Below are positions 50,692 to 56,992 of a stretch of DNA of 64,000 nt, in pieces. Each line of letters opens with the position of its first letter. Positions within the stretch are counted from its first letter, which is position 1. The DNA is taken from assembly GCF_030693625.1 (NCBI RefSeq), contig NZ_JAUYAF010000063.1, positions 52,828 to 116,827 of the forward strand, read 5' to 3'. Origin of the DNA: Phenylobacterium sp. (GTDB lineage Bacteria; Pseudomonadota; Alphaproteobacteria; Caulobacterales; Caulobacteraceae). A program made the position numbers and the translations under genes. Below the pieces are notes generated by a model. It saw only the letters and a list, made by a program, of their open reading frames with translations. It was not told the origin of the DNA and made no database searches.

Positions 50692-50813
50692 GGCCTAACT
50701 CCCGTTTTGTTTGTTGCGACCTTTCTAGCGCGGGCGGGGCCCGCCGCGAGGTCTTTCTGAGCTCGGCGTTCCAAGTGATTGACGCCCCTGCGGCGCTCGG
50801 ACCAAGAAGGGTG

Positions 50814-52313
50814 ATGCTCGATCAGTTCGACGCCCGCCTCGACGCCGATTTCCCGCCGGTCGACTCCGCGCGGCTCATCGCGGCGCTGAAGCCGTTGCTG
50901 CCGGCCGAGGGGCTGAAGACGACTGTGGAGGCCCTGCGGCCCTACGAGACCGACGGCCTGGCCGCCTACCGCTCCCTGCCGGCCGTCGTCGCCCTGCCCG
51001 AGAGCGTGGAGCAGGTGCAGGCGATCCTGCGGGTCTGCTCGGCGCTCGGCGTCCCGGTGGTGGCGCGCGGGGCGGGCACTGGGCTCTCGGGCGGCGCCCT
51101 GCCCTATCCCGGTTGCGTGTTGCTGAGCCTGGCCAAGTTCAGCCGCATACTGGAGGTGGATGCCCAGGCGCGGACCGCGCGGGTACAGCCCGGCGTGCGC
51201 AACCTGGCGATTTCCGAGGCCGTCGCACACCTCGGCCTGTTCTATGCCCCCGACCCCTCCTCCCAGATCGCCTGCTCCATCGGCGGCAATGTCGCCGAGA
51301 ACGCCGGCGGCGTGCACTGCCTGAAGTACGGCCTAACGGTGCACAACCTGCTCAAGCTGGAGATCGTGACCCTGGAGGGCGAGGTCCTGCACCTCGGCTC
51401 CGACGCCTATGACGCGCCGGGCTTCGACCTGATGGCCCTGATGACCGGGTCCGAGGGGCTGCTGGGCGTCGTCACCGAAATCACCGTCAAGCTGACGCCC
51501 CTGCCCGAGACCACCCAGGTGCTGCTGGCCGCCTTCGACGATGTGGCGGTCGCGGCCCAGGCTGTCGCCGAGATCATCGCCGAGGGGGTCATTCCGGCGG
51601 GGCTGGAGATGATGGACGGCCCGGCCCTGCGCGCCGCCGAGGACTTCGCGCTCGCGGGCTACCCCAAGGACGCCGCCGCCATCCTGCTGTGCGAACTGGA
51701 CGGCGCGGGGCCTGATGTGGCCGAGGAAATCGCCCGGGTCTCGGCCCTGCTGTCGTCCAGCGGCGCCACCGAGGTCCGCCAGGCCCGTGACGAGGACGAG
51801 CGCCGGCGGTTCTGGGCCGGGCGCAAGGGCGCCTTTCCCGCCGTCGGGCGGATCGCGCCGGACTATTACTGCATGGACGGCACCATTCCGCGCCGGGCCT
51901 TGCCCCAGGTGCTGACCGAGATCACCCGGCTGTCGGAGGTCCATGGCCTGGCGGTGGCCAATGTCTTCCACGCCGGCGACGGCAACCTGCACCCGCTGAT
52001 CCTCTACGACGCGGCCAAGGACGGCGACCAGGACGCCGCCGAGGCCCTGGGCGGCGCGATCCTGGAGCTCTGCGTCTCCGTCGGCGGCACCATCACCGGG
52101 GAGCACGGGGTTGGCCGCGAGAAGATCAACCAGATGTGCGTCCAGTTCAGCAGCGCCGAGATCGACGCCTTCCACGCCCTGAAGGCCGCCTTTGATCCCA
52201 AGGGCCTGCTGAATCCCGGCAAGGCCATCCCGACGCTCGCCCGCTGCGCGGAGTTCGGCGGCATGCACATCCACCATGGGGAACTGCCGTTTGCGCACCT
52301 CCCCCGGTTCTGA
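50814..52313 (+). CDS. glcD: Glycolate oxidase subunit GlcD
   Basis: The FAD-binding, catalytic subunit that oxidises glycolate to glyoxylate; 499 aa, as in E. coli. The FAD-linked oxidase N-domain shows VVARGAGTGLSGGALP, SIGGNVAENAGGVHCLKYG and MTGSEGLLGVVTE; the C-domain has NVFHAGDGNLHPLI and TITGEHGVGREK. First of a tight glcDEF operon; the next gene begins within its last 38 bases. The ATG at 50814 follows GAAGGG. Glyoxylate produced here can be consumed by malate synthase G at 7643. Confidence 0.94.
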   Translation: MLDQFDARLDADFPPVDSARLIAALKPLLPAEGLKTTVEALRPYETDGLAAYRSLPAVVALPESVEQVQAILRVCSALGVPVVARGAGTGLSGGALPYPGCVLLSLAKFSRILEVDAQARTARVQPGVRNLAISEAVAHLGLFYAPDPSSQIACSIGGNVAENAGGVHCLKYGLTVHNLLKLEIVTLEGEVLHLGSDAYDAPGFDLMALMTGSEGLLGVVTEITVKLTPLPETTQVLLAAFDDVAVAAQAVAEIIAEGVIPAGLEMMDGPALRAAEDFALAGYPKDAAAILLCELDGAGPDVAEEIARVSALLSSSGATEVRQARDEDERRRFWAGRKGAFPAVGRIAPDYYCMDGTIPRRALPQVLTEITRLSEVHGLAVANVFHAGDGNLHPLILYDAAKDGDQDAAEALGGAILELCVSVGGTITGEHGVGREKINQMCVQFSSAEIDAFHALKAAFDPKGLLNPGKAIPTLARCAEFGGMHIHHGELPFAHLPRF

Positions 52314-53340
52314 CCTTACCGAGAGCCTGGCCGAGCGCGTCCGCGCCGGGGGTCCTCTGCGCCTGGAGGGCGGCGGGACGCGCGCCTTCTATGGCCGTCC
52401 CTTCGAGGGTGAGCTGCTGTCGCTGGCCGGGCATCGGGGCGTCGTGGACTATGATCCCAGCGAACTGGTGATCACCGCGCGGGCTGGGACACCGGTGTCA
52501 GAGATAGAGACCCTGCTGGCCGGCGAGACCCAGATGCTGGCCTTCGAACCGCCAGTGTTTGGGCCTGCCGGCACACTTGGCGGGGCGGTGGCGACGGGAC
52601 TGTCGGGGCCGCGCCGGCCCTTCGTGGGTCCGCTGCGCGACTATGTGCTGGGCGCCCGGATCATGAACCCCCAGGGCGAGGTCCTGCGGTTCGGCGGCAC
52701 GGTGTTCAAGAACGTGGCCGGCTTCGACGCCTTCCGGCTGATGGCCGGGTCCCTGGGCTGTTTCGGTCCGATCCTGGACATCTCCCTGCGCGTGACGCCC
52801 CGGCCGCGCGCCGAGCTGGCCCTGGTCTTCGAGATGGCGGGAGAGGCCGCGCGGACCTGGGTGACCGGCCTGATGGGCCGCCCCCTGCCCCTGTCGGGCG
52901 CCTTCCATGACGGCCACCGCCTGCACCTGCGGCTCTCCGGCGGCGGGGCAGGTGTCGCGGCGACCCGGGCCGAACTGGGGGGCGAGGAAGAGCCGCTGGA
53001 GACCTGGGACGCCTTCCGCCACATGACCCACCCTGTGTTCGAGGCGCCAGTCCTGTGGCGGGTGTCCCTGCCGCCGACGGGGCCCGCCGAAGGCTTCGAG
53101 GCCACGGCCTGGGACTGGGCCGGCGGCCAGCGCTGGCTCACCGCCGACACGGTCGATCCCGGCGTCTGGGCGCGCGCCGCGCAGCTCGGCGGGCACGCGA
53201 CCCTGTACAGAGGCCAAGCCGGGAACGGCGAGGTTTTCCAGCCGCTTGCGCCGGGCGCCTTCAACCTGCACCGCCGTGTGAAGGCGGCGTTGGACCCGGC
53301 GGGGATCTTCAATCCCGGCCGGATGTATGAGGGCCTCTAG
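52276..53340 (+). CDS. glcE: Glycolate oxidase subunit GlcE
   Basis: The second FAD-binding subunit, 354 aa as annotated. Motifs are LRLEGGGTRAFYG, VDYDPSELVITARAGTPVSE, GTLGGAVATGLSGPRRP and GGTVFKNVAGFDAFRLMAGS. The start is uncertain: ATG 52276 overlaps glcD by 38 bases, while the TTG at 52291 has GGGGAA seven bases upstream. It abuts glcF with no gap (stop TAG then ATG). Confidence 0.92.
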   Translation: MGNCRLRTSPGSDLTESLAERVRAGGPLRLEGGGTRAFYGRPFEGELLSLAGHRGVVDYDPSELVITARAGTPVSEIETLLAGETQMLAFEPPVFGPAGTLGGAVATGLSGPRRPFVGPLRDYVLGARIMNPQGEVLRFGGTVFKNVAGFDAFRLMAGSLGCFGPILDISLRVTPRPRAELALVFEMAGEAARTWVTGLMGRPLPLSGAFHDGHRLHLRLSGGGAGVAATRAELGGEEEPLETWDAFRHMTHPVFEAPVLWRVSLPPTGPAEGFEATAWDWAGGQRWLTADTVDPGVWARAAQLGGHATLYRGQAGNGEVFQPLAPGAFNLHRRVKAALDPAGIFNPGRMYEGL

Positions 53341-54558
53341 ATGAAGACCGTCATCCAGGGGCCCCTGGCCGACACGACCGGGGGCGAGATCGCGGCCCGG
53401 GCCCTGCGCGCCTGCGTCCACTGCGGCATGTGTAACGCCACCTGCCCCACCTATCAGATCACCGGCGACGAGCTCGACGGACCGCGCGGCCGCATCTATC
53501 TGCTGAAACAGGCGCTCGAGGGCCAGCCGGTCAGCCAGACCACGCTGAAGCACCTCGACCGCTGTCTTAGCTGCCGGGCCTGCGAGACCACCTGCCCCTC
53601 CGGCGTCCAGTACCACCGGCTCTACGATATCGGCCGCGAGGCGGTGGCAGATCAGGTCGGCCGGCCCTGGACCGAGCGGCTGGCGCGGACGGTGATCCGC
53701 AGAGTGACCCGCTCGGCGGCCCTGCTGGGCGCGGTGCTTATCGTGGGCCGGCTCGTCCGCCCGATCCTGCCCAGGACCCTGCAGGCGAAGATCACCCCGC
53801 ACGTCGCGCCAGGCCCGCGCCCGGCCCCGCATCACCTCCGGCGGATGCTGATGCTGACCGGCTGCGCCCAGTCGGCGGCGGCCCCGCACTTCAACGCCGT
53901 CACCGCCCGTGTCTTCGACCGCCTGGGGGTCAGCCTGGTTGAAGCCCCCCGCGCCGGTTGCTGCGGCGCCGTCAGCTTCCATCTGGACGCGCCGCACGAG
54001 GGCGCGGCCGCCGCGCGCGCCAATATTGACGCCTGGTGGCCCGACATCGAGGCGGGCGCGGAGGCGGTGGTGGTCAATTCCAGCGGCTGCGCGGCCTTCA
54101 TCAAGGACTATCCCGACGTCCTGCGCGACGATCCCGCCTATGCCGAGAAGGCCCGTGTGGTGGCGTCCCTGGTGCGCGATCCCGTCCAACTGCTGTCGGT
54201 GGCCGACCTCGCCGCGCGCCGAGCCCCCGCGCAACCGCGCATCGCGGTCCACGAGCCCTGCACCCTGCAGCACGGCCTGCGCCTGACCGGTGCCATCGGG
54301 ACCCTGTTGCGCAGCCTGGGCTACGACCCCCAGCCCGTGGCCGACGCCCACATCTGCTGCGGCTCGGCCGGCGCCTATTCGCTGCTGCAGCCGGAGATGT
54401 CGGGCAAGCTCAAGGACGCCAAGCTGGCCCATCTCAACGCCCACCAGCCGGCGGCCATCTACACCGCCAACATCGGCTGCTGGATGCACCTGGCGCCCGA
54501 CTCCACCGCGCCCGTCCGCCACTGGCTGGAGGCGGTGGACGAGGTCACCCGGCCCTGA
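53341..54558 (+). CDS. glcF: Glycolate oxidase iron-sulfur subunit GlcF
   Basis: A 405-aa electron-transfer subunit. Two 4Fe-4S motifs are CVHCGMCNATCP (Cys25, 28, 31, 35) and CLSCRACETTCP (Cys75, 78, 81, 85). Two CCG-type domains follow (AGCCGAVSFH, HICCGSAGAY), completed by TGCAQS and NIGCWMH. It passes electrons from GlcDE to the respiratory chain at the membrane. Its ATG directly follows the glcE stop. Confidence 0.94.
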   Translation: MKTVIQGPLADTTGGEIAARALRACVHCGMCNATCPTYQITGDELDGPRGRIYLLKQALEGQPVSQTTLKHLDRCLSCRACETTCPSGVQYHRLYDIGREAVADQVGRPWTERLARTVIRRVTRSAALLGAVLIVGRLVRPILPRTLQAKITPHVAPGPRPAPHHLRRMLMLTGCAQSAAAPHFNAVTARVFDRLGVSLVEAPRAGCCGAVSFHLDAPHEGAAAARANIDAWWPDIEAGAEAVVVNSSGCAAFIKDYPDVLRDDPAYAEKARVVASLVRDPVQLLSVADLAARRAPAQPRIAVHEPCTLQHGLRLTGAIGTLLRSLGYDPQPVADAHICCGSAGAYSLLQPEMSGKLKDAKLAHLNAHQPAAIYTANIGCWMHLAPDSTAPVRHWLEAVDEVTRP

Positions 54559-55923: not shown

Positions 55924-56013
55924 ATGGCCACCTCGACCGCCAGTGCTGCGATGACCGACCTGCGGAGCGTGCTGAACGCCCGCGGCGGCCGAGGTCTGCG
56001 CGTCTTCGGATAG
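55924..56013 (+). CDS. Possible 29-codon small ORF
   Basis: An ATG-to-TAG frame in the 238-bp gap before the synthetase-like gene, encoding MTDLRSVLNARGGRGLRVFG at its end. Third positions are G/C rich. No ribosome site is obvious. It could be a leader peptide or the start of a decayed gene; I do not recognise it. Confidence 0.2.
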   Translation: MATSTASAAMTDLRSVLNARGGRGLRVFG

Positions 56014-56102
56014 ACCGCGGGACCAGGCGTGAGCCGTTCCCGGGCGCTCCGGGGACGTGAAACCACCGCCTGACATTCCCAAATCTATCTGGAGGAGCCG
56101 CC

Positions 56103-56846
56103 GTGCTTTCCCTCTACCAATCCAATGGGTTGGTCCACTGGACCGACCGTGAGATTCGCCTGCGCGACATGATGGCCGCCCACTTCGCCGCTGAGGTGTC
56201 CGCCTTCCTGACGAACGCCAACCCCGCCTGGGACATCCGCCGGGTGGAGGCGCCGCAGCTGACGCCGCGCGAGTTGGTGTCGGAGGCCTATGGGCCCGAG
56301 GACATATTCTTCATCGAGCGCCTGGGCGACGCCCAGCTGGTCCTGCGGCCGGAGACCACGCCCTCGACCTACGCCTACATGCAGCACCTGCTCAACAGTC
56401 ACGCCAGGGTGCGCATGCCCCTGTGTGTCTGGCAGTCCGGAAAGTCGTTCCGGCGCGAGCAGGACCAGGTGAGCAAGCACATGCGGCTGAAGGAGTTCTG
56501 GCAGATGGAATTCCAGTGCGCCTACACCGCCGATACCGCCAACGACTATCACGCCGCGAGCCTGGAGCCGTTGCGCGCGATGATCGAGGCCATGGTGCGC
56601 CTGCCCACGCGCATCGTGCCCTCCGACCGCCTGCCCGCCTATTCCCAGGTGACCATGGATGTGGAGGTCGACAACGGCGACAAGTGGATGGAGGTCTGCT
56701 CCATCTCCCGGCGCACCGATTTCCCGCAAGTCGCCCGCTTCCCCACCAAGGCCGGCGAAGTGCGCGAGGTGGCGGTCCTGGTGCTGGAGATCGCCATCGG
56801 CCTGGACCGCTGCGTTTATAACTGGAGCGTCGCCGACGCCCGGTAG
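56103..56846 (+). CDS. Stand-alone class II aminoacyl-tRNA synthetase core, GlyRS-like
   Basis: A 247-aa protein starting at GTG with GGAGGAG six bases upstream. It matches only the catalytic core of alpha2-type glycyl-tRNA synthetase: VLRPETTPSTYAYM (from 80) corresponds to the LRPETAQG segment, SFRREQDQVSKHMRLKEFWQ (115-134) to motif 2, WMEVCSISRRTDF (195-207) to the GlyRS substrate region, and LEIAIGLDRCVYNW (228-241) to motif 3. The anticodon-binding domain and GlyRS insertions are missing. Motif residues for ATP binding (Arg117, Glu119, Arg236) look kept, so it may still activate an amino acid, but for an acceptor other than tRNA-Gly. Neighbours give no clear pathway. Confidence 0.8.
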   Translation: MLSLYQSNGLVHWTDREIRLRDMMAAHFAAEVSAFLTNANPAWDIRRVEAPQLTPRELVSEAYGPEDIFFIERLGDAQLVLRPETTPSTYAYMQHLLNSHARVRMPLCVWQSGKSFRREQDQVSKHMRLKEFWQMEFQCAYTADTANDYHAASLEPLRAMIEAMVRLPTRIVPSDRLPAYSQVTMDVEVDNGDKWMEVCSISRRTDFPQVARFPTKAGEVREVAVLVLEIAIGLDRCVYNWSVADAR

Positions 56847-56992
56847 GCGCCCTGCCCCGGCCGGTCCGCCGGCCGGGGAAAACCTCGCCCCACTTCCCTT
56901 GGGTCAGCCCTGACAAGGCGTCCGTCTTGGCCCATTCTCCGTATCCAGAGAGCGGCGCCCGCGAGAGCGCCGCCCATACGGAGGACGACGTC

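Follow-up and report, generated by a model that had tools for sequence, protein, structure and literature searches.

A stand-alone class II synthetase core of phage affinity and its conserved leader in Phenylobacterium

The 64,000-nucleotide stretch of Phenylobacterium sp. DNA analysed here (the window; contig NZ_JAUYAF010000063.1, positions 52,828 to 116,827) encodes a stand-alone class II catalytic core of the glycyl-tRNA synthetase (GlyRS) type. We show here that this core gene belongs to a family whose members, of about 245 aa, are found in scattered alphaproteobacteria and in tRNA-rich jumbo phages, and that it is preceded by a short, conserved open reading frame (ORF), the leader, whose end overlaps a hairpin. 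Judged from sequence, the gene represents a real, conserved enzyme family of phage affinity that is probably active and has a dedicated leader. The reading that we place first, with about an even chance of being right, is that of a phage-derived minimal synthetase that would charge an RNA acceptor under ribosome-coupled control. The enzyme would use ATP to activate glycine, or else a different small amino acid, forming an aminoacyl-adenylate, and would then load this residue onto an RNA at its 3' end. The acceptor would most likely be a tRNA or a tRNA-like molecule, the anticodon of which would not be read. In alphaproteobacteria, leader and gene would have spread as a self-contained unit.

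The catalytic core and its active site

The first-pass annotation had described an intact ORF with a strong ribosome site, GlyRS-type motifs 2 and 3 and an LRPET segment, but devoid of the anticodon-binding domain and of insertions, and all of this was borne out. Motif 2 (SFRRE...R128), motif 3 (GLDR) and LRPET are present, and motif 1 was found in addition (helix 15-39, Pro51). The frame is open and a GGAGGAG element stands ahead of its GTG start (Table 1). Since the protein ends 11 residues past the motif 3 arginine, the anticodon-binding domain is absent, and the insertions are missing in the alignment with GlyRS. Profile searches and structure prediction, both proposed by the annotation, agree with a GlyRS-type class II core. 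Pfam tRNA-synt_2b matches above the family cut-off (E 5e-10), and the NCBIfam glycine--tRNA ligase profile gives an E value of 1.4e-16, yet its 60.4 bits lie below the cut-off of 312. For the AlphaFold model (pLDDT 89.9), the 14 best structural matches are all GlyRS entries. A GC-rich inverted repeat without a T run, recognized by eye, follows directly after the TAG stop codon (56846-56880).

The active site is kept throughout the family. In a genuine 461-aa GlyRS (L202), residues E164, R196, E198, R207, F211, E215, E283, R290, D292, E323, D329 and R330 are conserved in all 11 aligned family proteins, and their equivalents in the core protein include E84, R117, E119, R128, F132, E136, E197, E229, D235 and R236. 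Across 85 distinct homologues the catalytic positions vary little or not at all; this is a set from which matches of fewer than 230 residues had first been removed, with broken or short copies such as L047 and L077-L079 dropped. Since these catalytic residues are shared by so many distinct proteins, the core is not a chance product, and the earlier view that it is probably functional stands. E84, E136 and E229 correspond to what we take to be the carboxylates that grip the amino group of glycine in Thermus GlyRS. At the position of the family's Ala231, Thermus GlyRS presumably has a serine; actinobacterial GlyRS also has alanine there in the alignment. Glycine is a plausible substrate.

Conservation of these residues bears on the possibility that the enzyme modifies a protein or a small molecule in the manner of EpmA, HisZ or AsnA, for example as a phage translation-factor modifier that bacteria adopted. 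Proteins of the HisZ type are expected to lose catalytic residues, whereas the core family has retained them. Furthermore, neighbouring genes recur solely among close relatives in the 29 bacterial loci listed, and none is constant across genera. In favour of a modifier are weak HisRS/HisZ profile matches of the core protein, an R2K-type ATP-grasp gene nearby in the phages Phosso and XbC2, and trimmed synthetase cores that are known to have ended in such roles (excerpts of PMC9437257). We regard a modifier as doubtful, but worth keeping in view.

The annotation had also pointed to trimmed class II cores with acceptors other than tRNA and proposed to look for a carrier protein among conserved neighbours. 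No such partner was found; in the 29 loci, no carrier-protein gene and no neighbour of another kind comes back from genus to genus, although a distant gene may supply one. Overall, the earlier interpretation receives partial support. An enzyme resembling the amino acid:carrier-protein ligases would activate glycine (or alanine) and load a phosphopantetheine carrier protein encoded elsewhere, and as a class II core without a tRNA-binding domain the core protein fits the definition of these ligases in excerpts of PMC9437257. However, none of them is among the best 60 of 64 profile matches, several phage copies of the core gene sit among tRNA genes, and the zinc dependence described in the same excerpts finds no invariant cysteine (71-81 of the 85 homologues have one at four sites, namely 76, 80, 71 and 81). 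Carrier-protein loading is possible, but it appears quite unlikely and is less supported than RNA aminoacylation.

The leader and its hairpin

Copies at unrelated bacterial loci are similar in DNA sequence from about 125-210 nt upstream to near the stop codon of the core gene, and by this measure the mobile unit in bacteria is the leader plus the core gene. When the nearest suitable ATG is taken, leaders are 26-33 codons long; the tail is typically GRGLRV plus two residues, and the last codons in most loci are CGA GGT CTN CGC GTC. Among 74 loci, which include some genomes twice, GGT, GTC and the site of the stop codon are kept in all, CGA in 73 (L066 has a stop) and a glycine codon before CGA in 67. 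The two commonest lengths account for 46 leaders; the frame is stop-free in all of these, and the other two frames contain stops in 46 and 27 of them. The tail is rich in glycine (25%), and CGA is a rare codon, accounting for 2.0% of the arginine codons in eight genes of the window. When 148 Rhizobium genomes were searched with the leader pattern, 67 places in 66 genomes came up, and the reversed pattern gave none. At each of these places a core-gene match follows downstream at a distance of 37-137 nt; two such places belong to genomes with a broken gene (G123 and G152). Since all 67 precede a core gene or its remnant, the leader looks dedicated to this gene, and 65 of the 71 full-length Rhizobium core genes have it by the strict pattern. 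At the promoter-like element ahead of the leader (Table 1), a simple sigma-70 scan gave no site. With Rfam, 3.7 kb of the window yielded just four matches, each of which scored under its gathering threshold. A riboswitch or free-standing non-coding RNA was rejected as an explanation; the conserved upstream DNA is the end of the leader ORF and the hairpin adjoining the core gene.

This hairpin, P1, consists of ten pairs that connect the final codons of the leader with the spacer and of three further pairs at its foot. We compared 32 leaders, picked for diversity, with 500 shuffles and with slid controls. Of the P1 cells 94.0% are paired, compared to 81.9% (standard deviation 1.2) in the shuffles and 28-42% in the slid controls, and two-sided changes are found in 51 cells compared to 20.9 (standard deviation 2.9). 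Not one of the 500 shuffles matches either value, and RNAalifold recovers the same helix. Thus, P1 covaries in the aligned leaders, and the conserved ORF overlapping a conserved hairpin is the arrangement that characterizes translated-leader attenuators. A ribosome completing the leader would have to open P1, while a ribosome delayed before it need not. Because leader translation would open P1, expression of the core gene would track ribosome progress at the glycine and arginine codons, and it is probable that the leader controls the gene. The glycine-rich tail is compatible with control through the supply of glycyl-tRNA, as would befit a core gene with a GlyRS-like product; the conserved rare arginine codon equally fits control by arginine-tRNA or general stalling.

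Leaders that terminate in glycine codons would also suit an inducible back-up or resistance GlyRS, which would withstand an inhibitor or toxin that reduces Gly-tRNA and would be induced by stalling in the leader. The own genome retains elsewhere a normal GlyRS alpha subunit, belonging to the other type of this enzyme, leader and core gene occur sporadically and at unrelated loci, and resistant second synthetases exist for serine, isoleucine and tryptophan (excerpts of PMC9437257). However, without the anticodon-binding domain the enzyme may charge normal tRNA-Gly poorly, and no inhibitor for such a role is known here. Moreover, the gene is dispensable, since 8 of the 148 Rhizobium genomes have nothing beyond remnants or short matches, a part of them perhaps due to chance. 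A back-up synthetase therefore seems unlikely.

Table 1. Features of the core gene, its leader and its protein (positions in the window)
Feature	Position	Strand	Remarks
Promoter-like TTGACC - 15 nt - CCTAAA	55889..55915	+	first TTG kept in consensus of 70 leaders
Leader ORF	55924..56013	+	29 codons and TAG; ends ARGGRGLRVFG; conserved codons CGA GGT ... GTC
GGT, base of hairpin	55993..55995	+	pairs with ACC at 56062-56064
P1, 5' strand	56000..56009	+	within last codons of leader ORF
P1, 3' strand (CCGGGGACGT)	56049..56058	+	
ACC, base of hairpin	56062..56064	+	pairs with GGT at 55993-55995
GGAGGAG, ribosome-binding site of core gene	56091..56097	+	
Core gene ORF	56103..56846	+	247 aa; GTG start, TAG stop; stand-alone class II GlyRS-type catalytic core
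Motif 1	Pro51		core protein residue
RPET	E84		core protein residue
Motif 2	R117, E119, R128, F132		core protein residues
Further residues	E136, E197		core protein residues
Motif 3	E229, G233, D235, R236		core protein residues

Distribution, mobility and phage context

In a set of 100 genomes the protein is present in seven, the own genome included, all of them among the 60 Phenylobacterium genomes and none among the 40 others. A contig search gave 72 bacterial loci, three of which are short partial matches, mostly in Rhizobium but also in Devosia, Phenylobacterium, Mesorhizobium, Shinella and Pleomorphomonas, as well as 16 loci in viral contigs. Of the 148 Rhizobium genomes, 78 have a match, with 71 full-length places. 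One Devosia plasmid has the complete gene and two rhizobial plasmids have partial matches. In one Rhizobium, a 2.49-kb segment that comprises a transposase-like ORF (named by eye), leader and core gene is found twice with 99.96% identity (L070 and L071, 6358-8849). An actinobacterial match from Nonomuraea was rejected as a family member, being an ordinary 461-aa GlyRS. A defence gene was likewise rejected, PADLOC being without a match for three proteins. Upstream in the window (50775-54558) lie three genes, two FAD-binding and one iron-sulfur, which we take to be glycolate-oxidase-like, followed by an acyl-CoA dehydrogenase gene. No clean empty site was found in 29 other Phenylobacterium genomes, three of which (G050, G017 and G049) carry the core gene themselves: the sequence available around the downstream NosD-like gene did not include the acyl-CoA dehydrogenase.

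The phage matches comprise 19 records of 311-636 kb, some phages being included twice, with Caulobacter and Brevundimonas as the chief hosts; PHROGs holds no match to the core protein. A maximum-likelihood tree with 87 rows places the bacterial copies together to one side of a branch (97/91), and a phage copy, L093, adjoins them (98/78). The core gene is related to, and probably derived from, genes of jumbo phages. On this tree, which is unrooted, transfer from phage to bacterium is likely.

All 13 phage records tested have tRNA genes, 11 of them with 25-59 each, and in the two 635-kb phages the core gene lies amid 13 and 6 tRNAs, respectively. We scanned 20 viral loci, five of which are copies of one phage type. 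In seven (L081, L082, L088, L089, L091, L092 and L096, the last from Phosso), a tRNA with a CUA anticodon, i.e., an amber suppressor, lies about 50-920 nt upstream of the core gene; in L093 and L097 a different tRNA lies about 20 nt upstream, and in L095 the core gene is amid tRNAs. The CUA tRNA of Phosso is 335 nt from the core gene and 58.9 kb from any other tRNA. All seven adjoining CUA tRNAs have a G discriminator, their acceptor stems differ and two have a different anticodon stem. A second CUA tRNA, distant from the core gene, is found in Phosso (W01:446731-446803) and at G105:293273-293302. The L081-L092 group, from metagenomic phages, and Phosso have a block in common that includes, besides the CUA tRNA and the core gene, an R2K ATP-grasp, a cysteinyl-tRNA synthetase (CysRS), a PTH2-like and other genes; CysRS scores above the family cut-off in all three cases tested. 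This block, to which Phosso adds an RNA ligase and a kinase/phosphatase-like protein (L096:7070-18780), has the look of a region for supplying and repairing tRNAs. At L087:5001-7045, a full CysRS gene directly overlaps the core gene.

These tRNAs allow a more specific reading, in which the jumbo-phage core would be an anticodon-blind synthetase for a dedicated amber-suppressor tRNA, later adopted by bacteria as a mobile gene with a leader that reads glycine and arginine codons. We consider this rather unlikely. The CUA linkage is conserved but may go back to one founding event. General recoding of the stop codon in Phosso was rejected; TAG ends 3 of the 39 genes counted and is thus not generally reassigned. 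Besides PMC9437257, excerpts of PMC13037316, PMC5852040, PMC6102473 and PMC8504454 were drawn upon. In this literature, CUA tRNAs are reported for the phages XacN1 and RsoM2USA; the authors of the XacN1 work found no target genes. XacN1 is not among the 19 phage records matched, its presence in that collection being unchecked.

Weighing the evidence and comparison with known systems

Several observations weigh against an enzyme that charges RNA under ribosome-coupled control. On the side of the leader, the ratio of non-synonymous to synonymous polymorphism (pN/pS) is 0.72 and 0.83, barely under that of the other frames (0.74-1.10), and 6 of the 71 full-length Rhizobium core genes are without a leader by the strict pattern. 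Neither the count of P1 pairs that change on both sides nor that of pair types is higher than in the shuffles, and P1 slid by +1 retains 33 two-sided cells, with a score of 0.233 compared to 0.354. Modelling of ribosome masking in 26 leaders gave no consistent effect on the ribosome site, which was opened in seven and closed in two by a ribosome at the leader stop, and opened in nine and closed in five by one at CGA; a terminator scan found none. On the side of the acceptor, there is no tRNA gene in the window or near the core gene at the 24 bacterial loci tested, and no CUA tRNA among the tRNAs listed for the own genome (pattern, Rfam and ARAGORN). A host CUA partner was rejected as well: nine bacterial genomes gave ten pattern matches, and of the four fetched none is a tRNA by ARAGORN. 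In phages, 10 of the 20 loci, including the five of one phage type, have no tRNA within the available stretch, and 6 of the 12 viral records searched gave no CUA tRNA, two of these six having matched only tRNA-Arg or received no closer look. In G103, G106 and XbC2 a CUA tRNA is present but distant from the core gene. For three phages, selected post hoc because a tRNA was near, random placement would bring the gene equally close to one with P 0.06-0.09. The seven CUA cases are not independent because the block is one syntenic region of related phages, and its CysRS could be the true partner.

If a tRNA is charged, the core protein, with its 247 residues, would be a natural example of a minimal class II synthetase, with which one could ask how small a protein can be and still recognize a tRNA, and possibly part of a new orthogonal pair; if another target is loaded, it would open the way to an unknown acceptor. 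Either way, a link emerges between jumbo-phage translation genes and a mobile gene of bacteria. As a regulatory element the leader is well defined and open to testing, and its inducer should disclose the role of the enzyme. No earlier description of leader or core family was found in Rfam (leader) or in the open-access literature (both).

The leader resembles translated-leader attenuators, such as the Sinorhizobium trp leader (PMC7298713), in that a short upstream ORF overlaps a hairpin. It differs in its conserved peptide tail and rare CGA codon, and in that neither a terminator (scan) nor a masked ribosome site (26 leaders) was found. The glycine:carrier-protein ligase of Bradyrhizobium japonicum (4h2s, 297 residues) is likewise a trimmed class II core from an alphaproteobacterium; it acts on glycine, the probable substrate of the core protein as well. 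Single-domain pyrrolysyl-tRNA synthetase (PylRS) is similar in size and also a lone class II catalytic domain, and PylRS chains rank directly after the best GlyRS chains in the sequence-profile search. Such synthetases pair with tRNA(CUA), and some phage relatives of the core gene adjoin one; in the amber-suppressor reading, the family would be a GlyRS-derived parallel to this pair. The core protein, in contrast, has a GlyRS-type active site, and no CUA tRNA was found for it in its own genome or in the window. Also close is the alpha2 GlyRS of archaea, eukaryotes and actinobacteria, which shares the core with motifs 1-3, the fold, the spacing of motif 2 and, at GlyRS positions, E84, E136 and E229. 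The GlyRS catalytic residues are all there, while the curated score and the C-terminal anticodon-binding domain of a glycine--tRNA ligase are not. Compared to the aligned GlyRS, the core protein is 21-27% identical and has none of the N-terminal or core insertions, and its gene is mobile and has a leader of its own.
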